A DNA stretch of 64,000 nt from NCBI GenBank assembly GCA_001464425.1, contig LNEK01000044.1, positions 129,001 through 193,000 on the forward strand, in the 5' to 3' direction. The stretch comes from Alphaproteobacteria bacterium Ga0077535. Its GTDB lineage: Bacteria > Pseudomonadota > Alphaproteobacteria > Caulobacterales > Aquidulcibacteraceae. The translations under genes were made by a program, and so were the position numbers. Shown piece by piece: positions 22,678-27,484 of the stretch. Position 1 is the stretch's first letter; each line of letters opens with the position of its first letter. The notes beneath the pieces are model-generated. The model did no database searches and was not told where the DNA came from. It was given only the letters and a program-made list of their open reading frames with translations.

Positions 22678-22926
22678 TTACATGGCAGCCGCGACGACCT
22701 TCTTGGTCTTGCGGGCAGTCTTGCGCTTCGCAGTCTTGCGAACCGTCTTCTTCGCTGCCGGCTTGCGGGCCGTCTTCTTCGCGCTCTTGCGCTTGGCAAC
22801 CTTCTTCGTCGCCTTCTTCGCGGTCTTCTTCGCCGTCTTGCGCTTGGCGGCCTTGCGGACGGTCTTGCGGGCGGCGGTCTTGCGGGCCGGCTTTTTGGCC
22901 GAGGCCTTCTTTACTTTCTTAGCCAT
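22678..22926 (-). CDS. Lysine/alanine-rich histone H1-like protein
   Basis: An 82-residue, extremely basic protein: 30 lysines and 9 arginines, almost all other residues being Ala, Thr or Val, with no acidic and no aromatic residues. The sequence is built of degenerate short units such as KKTARKPAAKKTVRKTAKRK. This resembles the tails of bacterial histone H1-like and AlgP-type proteins, which bind DNA without sequence specificity and condense the nucleoid. The frame is open well upstream, but the ATG at 22926 follows gaggaa and begins the low-complexity protein. An AT-rich leader precedes it and a hairpin follows. Such proteins are fast-evolving, so the exact role is uncertain. Confidence 0.85.
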   Translation of the reverse strand: MAKKVKKASAKKPARKTAARKTVRKAAKRKTAKKTAKKATKKVAKRKSAKKTARKPAAKKTVRKTAKRKTARKTKKVVAAAM

Positions 22927-23144
22927 CTTAGTTTCCTCATCTTTACTTGTGTTGGTACTGGGTTGGATGGGAGTTGTTTGACTCTCCGAGGATTTTTTTG
23001 CGCTAATTTGGTTTGCAAGTAGTTTCCGCAAGTACTCGTGCGAATTTTTCTGCATGCACGTTTTTTGTTTGCGCGAATGCTCTGCGAAAACTCTGCGGCC
23101 CTTGATTATCAAGGCGCGTAGCGTTTTGCGCGCGCTCGAAAACG
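22927..23144. other. AT-rich leader region of the histone-like gene
   Basis: This 218-base gap between xerC and the histone-like gene is clearly more AT-rich than its surroundings, with runs such as ggatttttttgcg and cgttttttgttt. It most likely contains the promoter and a long leader of the histone-like gene, but I cannot fix a -35/-10 pair. A 13-base palindrome, CTTGATTATCAAG, lies at 23101-23113. The region is open in frame with the histone-like gene, but its composition does not resemble a coding extension. Confidence 0.5.
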
Positions 23145-24059: not shown

Positions 24060-24105
24060 GGGTAGAAGTTAGCGGCGATTGCTAAAAATTACTCACCGCT
24101 CGCGT

Positions 24106-24212
24106 CGTCATCCTGGGGCGCACGCAGTGCGAACCCAGGACCCAGGGGATCGTAGAGCTGTGTGTTTGCCCCTGGGTCCTGGGCTCTCGCTGACGCCAGC
24201 CCTAGGATGACG
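24106..24212. repeat. Long imperfect inverted repeat between xerC and priA
   Basis: The 107-base element starts CGTCATCCT and ends AGGATGACG. The left arm (24106-24149) and right arm (24171-24212) are inverted copies with a few mismatches, including a 14-base perfect stretch CCAGGACCCAGGGG, separated by 21 bases. Elements of this kind (GTCATCCTGGG...CCCAGGATGAC) are scattered between genes in related alphaproteobacteria; this is recalled, not searched. It could fold into a strong hairpin and end transcripts from both sides. Confidence 0.8.
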
Positions 24213-24267
24213 AAGAGGGGTGGGTGAGGCGCTTTCGCCGAATCTCCGGAGCCCCTAGATTCATCCG

Positions 24268-26547
24268 ATGTCCTCGACTGCCCGCCGCCGCGCCATGGAT
24301 GCGCTGAAGCGCCAGCGCGCGCCCGCGCCGGCTGGGCCGCTGTTTGCGGTGGCCGAGGAGGGGGCGGAGTTCGTCCACGATACTTTGGACAAGGTGGCGG
24401 TGCTTTTTCCGCTCCCGCTGCCGGAGCCGTTCGATTATCGGGCGCCGACATCGCTGGGCCTCCAGCCCGGCATGCATGTGATCGCGCCGATCGGGTCGCG
24501 GCTGGTGCGCGGCGTGGTGTGGAGCGTCGAGCGCGAGCATCCCGGTGCGGCAAACTTGAAAGCGATCGAGGAAGTGCTGCCCGGCTCGCCGGTGCCGGAG
24601 ATGTCGCGCGCGTTCATCGATTGGGCCGCGAAGTATCTGGTGCGCCCGCCTGGCGATCTCGTGCGCATGGTGGTGCGTTCGCCGGAAGCGTTGTTTCCGC
24701 CGCCGACGTACACAGTGATTGCGCCGACTGGTGAGCCGCCGCCGAAGCTGACTGAAGCGCGCAAGCGCGTGATGGAGGAAGCGGCGAAAGAGCATGTGAG
24801 CGCGGCCGAGCTGGCGCGGCGGGCTGAGACGTCTTCAGCGGTCGTTAAAGGCTTGGTCGATTGCGGCGCGCTGACCAAGCTGGAGATCAGCGAAGACCCG
24901 CCATTCCCGCCGCCGAACCTAGAGATGTCCGGCAAGGCGCTCTCGGGCATCCAGCAAGCCGCCGCTGATGAAATGTGCGTCACAGTGCGTGCCGGCGGTT
25001 TTCACGTGGCGCTGCTCGATGGCGTGACCGGCTCGGGCAAGACGGAAGTTTATCTCGAAGCGGCGGCCGAGGCGCTGAAGCTTGACCCGACGGCGCAGGT
25101 GCTAGTGCTGTTGCCGGAAATCGCGCTGACGCAAGCAGCGATGAGCCGGTTCAATGCGCGCTTTGGCGTAACGCCGGTGGAATGGCATTCTGCGATTCCA
25201 CAAAAGGCCCGCCGCCGCGCCTGGCGAGAGATCGCGGCAGGGCGGGCCCGGCTCGTTGTCGGCGCGCGCTCGGCGCTGTTTTTGCCTTATCCGAACCTGA
25301 AGCTCATCGTCATCGATGAAGAGCATGATTCTTCTTATAAGCAGGAAGAGGGCGTCATCTATCAGGCGCGCGATCTGGCGGTGGCGCGGGCGAAGCTCGG
25401 CGATTGCATGGTGATCTTGGCGAGCGCCACACCATCTTTGGAAACGCTCGTTAACGCGCAGTCCGGCCGCTACGCGCATGTGAAGTTGCCATCGCGCCAC
25501 GGCACGGCGGAATTGCCGGACGTGGAATTGGTCGATTTAAAGATCGATGCGCCGGAGAAAGGCCGCTGGCTTTCGCCGAAGTTGATTAAGGGCGCGGCCG
25601 AGGCGCTGCTGCGCGGCGAGCAATCGCTCTTCTATATGAACCGCCGCGGCTACGCGCCGCTCACTTTGTGTAAAGCCTGCGGCCATCGCATGCGCTCGCC
25701 CGACAGCGATTCATGGTTGGTTGAGCACCGTTACTCTGGGCGACTCGTGTGCCACCTCACCGGCTTTTCGATGCCGAAGCCGAAGGAGTGCCCCGAGTGC
25801 TTGGCGCCGGATAGCTTCACTTCGATCGGGCCGGGCGTAGAGCGCATTGAAGAAGAGGTGCGCTATTTTTTCCCGAATGCGCGGATCGAGATTTTCTCAT
25901 CCGACACCACGCCGAACGGCGACGCCGTCCGCGATTTGGTGGCGCGCATGGAGAAGAACGAGATCGATATTCTGATCGGCACGCAGATTGTCGCCAAGGG
26001 TCACAACTTTCCGAACTTGACGTTCGTTGGCGTCGTCGATGCCGATCTCGGTCTGAAGGGCGGCGATTTGCGCGCGGGTGAGCGCACGTATCAGCTGGTC
26101 AGCCAAGTCGCGGGCCGGGCGGGCCGTCACGAGAAAAAGGGCAGGGCGCTCATTCAAACCTACGCGCCGCACGAGCCAGTGATGCAGGCGCTGCTGGCGC
26201 AGGATCGCGATGCATTCTTCGCGGCGGAGATTGCGGAGCGCGAAGCGGCGGGCATGCCGCCTTATGGGCGCTTGGCGGCGGTGATCGTCTCCGCGCCGGA
26301 TGAATTGCTCGCGAACGATGCGGCAAAGCTGATGGGGGAGAAGGCGCCGGTGGTTGAGGGGCTCGATCTTTGGGGGCCCGCGCCTGCGCCGCTTTCGGTG
26401 ATCCGGGGCATGCATCGGCGCCGGTTCTTGATCCGCGCCAATCGCGGCGTTGATGTCAGCGCCTTCCTCGCGGCGTGGGCGAGCCGCGTGAAACTGCACA
26501 GCGCTGTGCGCGTGCAGATCGATGTTGATCCGTATAGCTTCTTGTGA
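24268..26547 (+). CDS. priA: Primosomal replication restart helicase PriA, one zinc site lost
   Basis: A 759-residue helicase that reloads the replisome at stalled forks. It has the N-terminal 3'-end binding domain (PLPEPFDYRAP), a winged-helix part, Walker A GVTGSGKTEV with K258, the DEEH box at 350-353, the helicase C motifs (LIGTQIVAKGHNFPNLTFVGVVDADLGLK is split over motifs V-VI region) and the C-terminal domain. Of the eight zinc-binding cysteines of E. coli PriA, C468, C471, C508 and C511 (site 1) are present. At the site 2 positions there are S477, S480, C495 and T498, so that site cannot form. It is followed by a tightly coupled 52-codon gene. Confidence 0.95.
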   Translation: MSSTARRRAMDALKRQRAPAPAGPLFAVAEEGAEFVHDTLDKVAVLFPLPLPEPFDYRAPTSLGLQPGMHVIAPIGSRLVRGVVWSVEREHPGAANLKAIEEVLPGSPVPEMSRAFIDWAAKYLVRPPGDLVRMVVRSPEALFPPPTYTVIAPTGEPPPKLTEARKRVMEEAAKEHVSAAELARRAETSSAVVKGLVDCGALTKLEISEDPPFPPPNLEMSGKALSGIQQAAADEMCVTVRAGGFHVALLDGVTGSGKTEVYLEAAAEALKLDPTAQVLVLLPEIALTQAAMSRFNARFGVTPVEWHSAIPQKARRRAWREIAAGRARLVVGARSALFLPYPNLKLIVIDEEHDSSYKQEEGVIYQARDLAVARAKLGDCMVILASATPSLETLVNAQSGRYAHVKLPSRHGTAELPDVELVDLKIDAPEKGRWLSPKLIKGAAEALLRGEQSLFYMNRRGYAPLTLCKACGHRMRSPDSDSWLVEHRYSGRLVCHLTGFSMPKPKECPECLAPDSFTSIGPGVERIEEEVRYFFPNARIEIFSSDTTPNGDAVRDLVARMEKNEIDILIGTQIVAKGHNFPNLTFVGVVDADLGLKGGDLRAGERTYQLVSQVAGRAGRHEKKGRALIQTYAPHEPVMQALLAQDRDAFFAAEIAEREAAGMPPYGRLAAVIVSAPDELLANDAAKLMGEKAPVVEGLDLWGPAPAPLSVIRGMHRRRFLIRANRGVDVSAFLAAWASRVKLHSAVRVQIDVDPYSFL

Positions 26548-26705
26548 TGGCTGACGCGCCACCACCTCGGCGCCGCGTGCGCATGTGGCTGCTCGCCATC
26601 TATGTGGTCTTCGGCTCACTTGCGCTGCTTGGGGCGATGTTGGCAGTATCGGTTTTGCTCATCCCTGAGCGCGGAATAATCACGCTGCCGGTGGAGCGTC
26701 CATGA
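26547..26705 (+). CDS. 52-residue single-helix membrane microprotein
   Basis: This short gene starts with the A of the priA stop (TGATG) and ends in an ATGA overlap with the SDR gene, so it is coupled on both sides. The product begins with a proline/arginine-rich segment (MADAPPPRRRVRM), has one hydrophobic helix (about 13-39) and a short tail ending LPVERP. By the positive-inside rule the N-terminus should be cytoplasmic. No family is recognised. The exact overlaps on both sides are the main argument that it is real. Confidence 0.65.
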   Translation: MADAPPPRRRVRMWLLAIYVVFGSLALLGAMLAVSVLLIPERGIITLPVERP

Positions 26706-27484
26706 CCTACAGACCCTTCGATTTGACCGGCCGCGTTGCGCTTGTCACAGGCGGCAATGGCGGCATTGGCCTTGGTATGGCGGAAGCTCTGGCGCAAGCG
26801 GGCGCTAGCGTCGAGATTTGGGGCACCAATCCGGCAAAGAACGCGGCCGCGCTGGAAAAGCTGAAGGCGCACGGCACGAAAGTGAATGCGCGCGTTGTTG
26901 ATGTGTCGAAAGAAGAGAACATCGTCGCCGGCTTCAATGCGACGCTTGCGGAGTTCGGCCGCATCGATTCGTGTTTCGCTAATGCCGGCATGAGCAATCG
27001 CTGGAAGAGTTTTCTGGATATTGGCGGCGAGGATTATCGCAGGCTGATGTCGATCAACCTCGATGGGGTGATCTGGACGTTGCGCGAAGCGTGCCGGCAC
27101 ATGAAGGCGCGCGCGGAAGCGGGCGATCCTGGTGGCTCGGTCGTCGCGGTCGCGAGCCTTGGCGCTTTATTCGGTGCGGCGCGCAATCAGGATTATACGG
27201 CGACGAAGGCGGCGGTGATTTCCGTCACCAATGGCATCGCCGTCGAGTTCGCGCGTTACGGCGTGCGCGCTAATTCGATCCTGCCCGGCTGGATCGCTAC
27301 GGAGATGACGGGCGCGGCCCAAGAGAATGACGTCTTCACTAAGAACGTGATCGCGCGTGTGCCGTCGCGACGTTGGGGAAGGGCGGAGGAGTTTGGCGGC
27401 ATCGCCGTCTATCTCGCCAGCGATGCGTCGAGCTTTCACACAGGGGACTCGATCCTGATCGATGGCGGGTATTCGAAGTTCTGA
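26702..27484 (+). CDS. SDR family oxidoreductase
   Basis: A 260-residue classical short-chain dehydrogenase/reductase. The nucleotide-binding TGGNGGIGLG is at 16-25, NAG at 94-96, and the catalytic S152, Y165 and K169 (YTATK) are in place; PGWIATEMT and the terminal GDSILIDGGYSKF also fit the family. The residue context after the second strand (EIWGTN) lacks a clear acidic residue for NAD, so cofactor preference is open. The substrate is unknown. The ATG overlaps the preceding microprotein stop and its own stop overlaps the next start, so it lies inside a coupled run of four genes that starts with priA. Confidence 0.92.
   Translation: MTYRPFDLTGRVALVTGGNGGIGLGMAEALAQAGASVEIWGTNPAKNAAALEKLKAHGTKVNARVVDVSKEENIVAGFNATLAEFGRIDSCFANAGMSNRWKSFLDIGGEDYRRLMSINLDGVIWTLREACRHMKARAEAGDPGGSVVAVASLGALFGAARNQDYTATKAAVISVTNGIAVEFARYGVRANSILPGWIATEMTGAAQENDVFTKNVIARVPSRRWGRAEEFGGIAVYLASDASSFHTGDSILIDGGYSKF

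Follow-up and report, generated by a model that had tools for sequence, protein, structure and literature searches.

A probable species-private membrane microprotein gene between priA and an SDR gene, with a putative part in relaying translation, in Alphaproteobacteria bacterium Ga0077535

We analysed a 64,000-nucleotide stretch of contig LNEK01000044.1 from Alphaproteobacteria bacterium Ga0077535 (called the window here, always at its full length) and found, between priA and a gene for an SDR-family oxidoreductase, a 52-codon frame that is best read as an orphan membrane microprotein, a type already known. The small membrane-peptide frame joined exactly to both neighbours, as a sequence-only reading had described it, is present and real as sequence; it is probably coding, representing a real but species-private gene. 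We favour, with moderate confidence, the interpretation that it is a species-private small gene lying in a changeable priA-SDR slot and that it also relays translation to the SDR gene.

Organization of the priA-SDR locus

The features of the locus are as follows.

24268-26547, plus strand: priA, primosomal protein N' (759 aa), with its stop TGA at 26545-26547
26547-26705, plus strand: 52-codon microprotein frame between priA and SDR, with TGATG at the 5' end and ATGA at the 3' end
26586-26663, plus strand: predicted single membrane helix, microprotein codons 14-39 (hydropathy, AlphaFold)
26655-26682, plus strand: weak promoter-like TTGCTC-N16-TAATCA within the microprotein frame, spotted by eye
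26690-26696, plus strand: GGTGGAG, Shine-Dalgarno-like, 5 nt upstream of the SDR ATG, read from the sequence
26702-27484, plus strand: SDR-family oxidoreductase (260 aa), Pfam adh_short_C2 at 189.8 bits (cut-off 27)

The product of priA matched NCBIfam NF004070 at 1053.9 bits (cut-off 921) as well as Pfam PriA_3primeBD and PriA_C, both of which exceeded their cut-offs. The SDR was assigned no specific substrate, because its NCBIfam matches all fell under their curated cut-offs. The microprotein frame, a single copy in its own genome, starts with the ATG at 26547-26549 and ends with the TGA at 26703-26705. Its first base is also the last base of the priA stop (TGATG), and its last four bases, ATGA, are at the same time the first four of the SDR gene (ATG at 26702-26704). 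Thus both the -1 and the -4 nt stop/start overlaps that mark termination-reinitiation coupled gene sets are found here, and the length of 52 codons between two genes lies within the 15-70 codons of ismORF-type bacterial microproteins.

Upstream of priA, the gap between a xerC-like gene and priA was bimodal in the relatives, measuring 83-196 bp in six of 20 congeners and 925-1115 bp in the other 14, with several of the long gaps containing an ORF of about 310 aa; the gap in the window (24060-24267, 208 bp) belongs to the short kind. Further upstream, at 22678-22930 on the minus strand, we noted a repetitive, lysine/alanine-rich C-terminus, presumably similar to histone-H1-like proteins.

Predicted properties of the microprotein

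The translated frame, MADAPPPRRRVRMWLLAIYVVFGSLALLGAMLAVSVLLIPERGIITLPVERP, comprises a short basic proline-rich N-terminus, followed by a single, highly hydrophobic helix and then by a short tail. Its maximum 19-residue Kyte-Doolittle (KD) mean was 2.51, and AlphaFold, run on the single sequence, gave one helix spanning residues 7-42 with a mean pLDDT of 81 and a pTM of 0.46. Both the single membrane helix and the basic, proline-rich N-terminus claimed earlier from the letters alone were therefore borne out, and the potential membrane helix is a further property of ismORF-type microproteins. Since positive charges (RRRVR) precede the helix, the sequence suggests that the N-terminus would be inside and the C-terminus outside. 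No Pfam or PHROG match was obtained up to E 10, and the top NCBIfam score of 12.8 bits is meaningless against a cut-off of 100.

Coding potential of the frame

A frame that bridges the two genes is not rare by itself, because 4.4% of Markov sequences of the same length and matched phase yielded one. When the ATG was granted, 39% remained open, a proportion favouring the view that the 154 nt amount to an ordinary spacer left open by accident. The hydrophobicity of the product, however, stands against such an accident: values as high as that of the microprotein occurred in just 0.2% of open Markov frames and, among the ORFs of 45-70 aa in the window (190 small ORFs, 16 of which belonged to neither class), a KD mean of at least 2.0 was reached by none of the 137 inside long ORFs and by one of the 37 outside them, the one being the microprotein. 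The hydrophobic helix is the best coding evidence for the frame. Apart from the microprotein, no two-sided bridge beginning with ATG was found in the window; two others, of 28 and 11 codons, begin with GTG.

Codon usage is weak evidence for coding and is poor for the host genome. The codon log-odds score of the microprotein, 0.05 per codon, was lower than that of 95% of 91 gene windows, and 20% of 218 out-of-frame windows scored at least as high; ten hydrophobic gene windows scored 0.31-0.83. The score from synonymous codons only, -0.06, was below that of 97% of 89 gene windows and was reached by 42% of the 218 out-of-frame windows. Such usage looks noncoding and again favours an accidental spacer, but the frame has the best codon log-odds of its own six frames, and its TGATG start sits exactly on the priA stop, both of which argue against chance. 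Poor codon adaptation was common to several other private ORFs found between priA and the SDR gene in congeners.

Distribution in the family and order

A search of 60 genomes of the family (30 of them from the genus of the window, the own genome being counted) detected the microprotein at E≤0.001 in the own genome only, the best match elsewhere having an E of 0.0108; this is the taxonomic restriction expected of a de novo gene. At the DNA level, the frame matched one further genome at E≤0.001, G048, where the aligned piece of 46 nt (E 9e-4) is too short for a copy of the frame. Among 398 genomes of the order, nine, including the own one, matched at E≤0.01, with the best non-own match at E 3.7e-4 per genome. 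The weak matches in family and order are at about the chance level for that many genomes. Eight weak-match loci were checked over about 1.5 kb on each side (one locus being shorter) and showed no PriA match and no significant SDR match nearby. In addition, no relative was found in the genome_contigs and viral contig collections at E≤0.001 or in plasmids at E≤0.1, and a literature search, as far as the text of the sources was available, found no description of a small gene located after priA. Judged from these searches, the microprotein is private to the window genome among the genomes searched.

Looking for the small frame after priA in relatives had been suggested as a check; it was found in none of the 16 congeners in which priA and the SDR gene are adjacent. 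A disrupted frame with that adjacency kept had been named as grounds for refutation. The outcome is of the refuting kind, the adjacency being kept without the frame in 16 of the 20 congeners compared, and it counts against a conserved function and not against a private gene in the window genome. A conserved microprotein was rejected on the basis of its presence in one of 60 family genomes and the chance level of the order-wide matches. In particular, the idea that the microprotein is a conserved partner of either PriA or the SDR draws on gene order and coupling only and is largely refuted, retaining very little probability: none of the 16 syntenic congeners has the frame behind its priA, none of the 59 further family genomes searched matches it at E≤0.001, and neither PriA nor SDR was matched in the 3.1-kb locus that gave the best weak match across the 398 genomes of the order.

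Variability of the interval between priA and the SDR gene

Up to 20 kb around priA was examined in 20 of 29 congeners; nine were left out (priA missing or broken, short contigs, contig ends). The gaps between priA and the adjoining SDR gene in 16 of the 20 were 10, 43, 69, 339, 363, 376, 376, 457, 540, 580, 712, 722, 1245, 1316, 1428 and 1546 bp, the 712-bp value being approximate because the PriA frame of that genome (G052) is broken near its end, and the gap in the window is 154 nt. In G052, the PriA match is split between two frames, with overlapping pieces that cover 1-692 and 685-759.

We found that the content of this slot was mostly unrelated between congeners, with DNA similarity at E≤1e-3 detected only within the pair G042-G056 and within the group G036-G043-G052. 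The former pair carries acyl-CoA dehydrogenase genes, identified in the slot of G042, and the latter group carries ORFs that are weakly TPR-like, the copies of G036 and G043 scoring under the Pfam cut-off and the G052 copy matched to these as DNA only. Further slots contained ORFs of 95-180 aa that matched no Pfam family, except for two sub-threshold matches of the one in G045; the three of these ORFs that were searched, from G058, G033 and G038, were each private to one of the 60 genomes at E≤0.001. The slot of G041 contains, on the opposite strand, a HepT-like RNase/nucleotidyltransferase pair of the toxin-antitoxin type (L107:8218-8839). In the PriA tree of 21 genomes, the window groups with G038 (100/99), yet the slot of this nearest relative holds an unrelated 126-aa ORF on the opposite strand; another supported pair, G036 and G050, combines a filled 722-bp gap with a 43-bp gap. 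Turnover of the slot is therefore fast, since close pairs in the tree differ in slot content. The position of the microprotein after priA, which had been called unexplained, is thereby placed in context: the priA-SDR interval is a slot whose contents differ in most congeners. The notion that this slot is uniquely hypervariable was unsupported, as gap sizes elsewhere in the neighbourhood show a similar spread (86-2416 and 299-2849 bp being two examples).

When slots were compared with one another, the best match of the window's slot was 24 nt (E 0.001) on the opposite strand of G043. The frame as a remnant of a relative's slot content or of an SDR promoter was considered and rejected, the slot comparison having given just this 24-nt match. 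A homologous noncoding ancestor, as would be looked for in the sisters of a de novo gene, was not found, the congeners having no alignable slot sequence, and the microprotein is accordingly not filed as a de novo gene. Horizontal acquisition from some unsampled donor, instead of origin in place, would agree with the foreign-like codon usage and with the other slot contents that look gained or lost whole, such as the HepT/nucleotidyltransferase pair and the acyl-CoA dehydrogenase genes. The searched collections of genome contigs, viral contigs and plasmids hold no match, however, and an imported gene would not usually fit so exactly between its neighbours, making this origin quite improbable.

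Putative promoter and overlaps at the SDR start

In nine of the 17 genomes with adjacent priA and SDR genes, a -10-like hexamer ends 5-7 nt ahead of the SDR ATG, with a TTG 17-18 nt further upstream. By chance, both boxes would be expected in 0.2% of sequences; the nine genomes are related, and the recurrence therefore represents conservation and not nine separate events. A tenth genome, G033, is one base short of the rule (CATAAC). The geometry of the element suggests a leaderless SDR mRNA, and the available text of a study of Caulobacter crescentus reports leaderless mRNAs for 375 genes, or 9.6% of coding sequences (PMC4117421). The window genome does not have this promoter-like element before the SDR gene, which is preceded instead by the Shine-Dalgarno-like GGTGGAG and the bridging frame. 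A consensus promoter scan returned no sites and did not recover the TTGCTC-N16-TAATCA within the frame, which as a possible substitute SDR promoter is a candidate lead only. Promoter loss through an 11-nt deletion between two CAT triplets was also considered; the spacing fits poorly and we do not claim it.

Among the genomes without both boxes, G031, G043, G036 and G052 have frames of 759, 252, 247 and 194 codons, respectively, that stop 3-10 nt before the SDR gene, which fits a rule of own promoter or coupling. The rule is not clean, because G041 and G034 show neither the element nor an adjacent upstream stop, whereas G050 shows both. In G050 (L102), the element is kept and a 15-codon TGATG...ATGA frame bridges priA and the SDR gene exactly.

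The ATGA overlap is little evidence alone, because the SDR gene begins with ATGA in 12 of the 17 genomes and any in-phase upstream frame ends there. Frames of 12-81 codons end at the SDR start by a -4 overlap in G038, G056, G042, G050, G033 and G054, and seven of the 12 genomes with an ATGA start, the window among them, have such a frame of 10 codons or more. At the other end, TGATG or TAATG occurs at the priA stop in five of the 17 genomes, giving frames of 52 codons in the window, 15 in G050, 95 in G033, 109 in G054 and 111 in G058. Of the exact coupling signals claimed by the sequence-only reading, the overlaps themselves (TGATG, ATGA) hold, but the 3' ATGA is not specific. That accidental frames reach the SDR start in relatives as well is a further point for the window frame being an open spacer; the missing promoter element in the window speaks against this, and together with the outlying helix leads us to regard a chance frame as unlikely.

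Proposed translational relay

In our favoured interpretation, ribosomes finishing priA would reinitiate at TGATG and make a 52-residue single-pass membrane peptide with its N-terminus inside, and would then reinitiate again at ATGA on the SDR gene, so that priA, microprotein and SDR would form one coupled unit. The bridging frame would thereby take over the work of the lost SDR promoter, and the peptide itself would be a young product. Because the promoter element is missing while GGTGGAG and the bridging frame are present, SDR translation in the window is probably relayed from priA. In the available parts of the reporter studies, most gene pairs tested with TGATG/ATGA overlaps showed coupled translation (PMC6728339), and a spacing of about 20 nt almost abolished reinitiation (PMC10666635); coupling over 154 nt would therefore require a bridging frame. 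By eye, no Shine-Dalgarno-like motif was seen upstream of the microprotein start. Removal of the Shine-Dalgarno sequence lowered reinitiation by 60-90% or wholly in four of five Escherichia coli pairs, according to the accessible text of PMC6728339, and by this analogy the missing motif speaks for a low efficiency of reinitiation at the microprotein.

The frame may alternatively be translated solely to pass ribosomes from priA to the SDR gene, its peptide being without function. This would agree with the weak codon adaptation, the lack of homologues in the collections searched, the distance dependence of reinitiation (PMC10666635, in the part available) and the 15-codon bridge of G050, which encodes a peptide too short for a membrane helix. 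A pure relay, however, has no need of a helix so far above the hydrophobicity of chance frames (0.2% of open Markov frames; none of 137 window ORFs), and we consider this alternative possible but somewhat doubtful.

Comparison with known systems

The following comparisons refer to those portions of the cited papers that were available. The ismORFs of Fesenko et al. (PMC11188072) are intergenic frames of 15-70 codons that are hydrophobic, potentially transmembrane and mostly without an assigned function, and the microprotein shares their size, intergenic place and hydrophobic potential membrane helix. The ismORF families, however, were called by purifying selection across Enterobacteriaceae and lie free, whereas the window frame has no homologue in the collections searched and overlaps both neighbours. 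The de novo emerging transmembrane ORFs of yeast described by Vakirlis et al. (PMC7005711) are likewise young and species-restricted with a predicted helix, but the host of the window frame is bacterial, the frame uses an operon junction and no homologous noncoding sequence was found for it. The coupled overlapping pairs of Huber et al. (PMC6728339, PMC10666635) have the same overlap types, TGATG and ATGA, whereas in the window one short private frame carries both overlaps in series and spans 154 nt, the coupling being putative.

Implications

On a broader view, the priA stop may be a landing point for gene birth in this genus, directly behind which private small genes, often membrane proteins, repeatedly settle or arise and are immediately translated by reinitiation; the window frame would then have captured the SDR gene, its relay replacing the promoter of the latter. 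We regard this generalization as speculative and rather unlikely. If the microprotein is translated, it would represent a very young, species-limited frame expressed without its own promoter or a strong ribosome site, through reinitiation where a conserved replication gene stops, with expression of the next gene then being taken over in turn. The slots of the congeners, whether empty, short, long or filled with unrelated content, form a ready comparison series on how new small genes get expressed.
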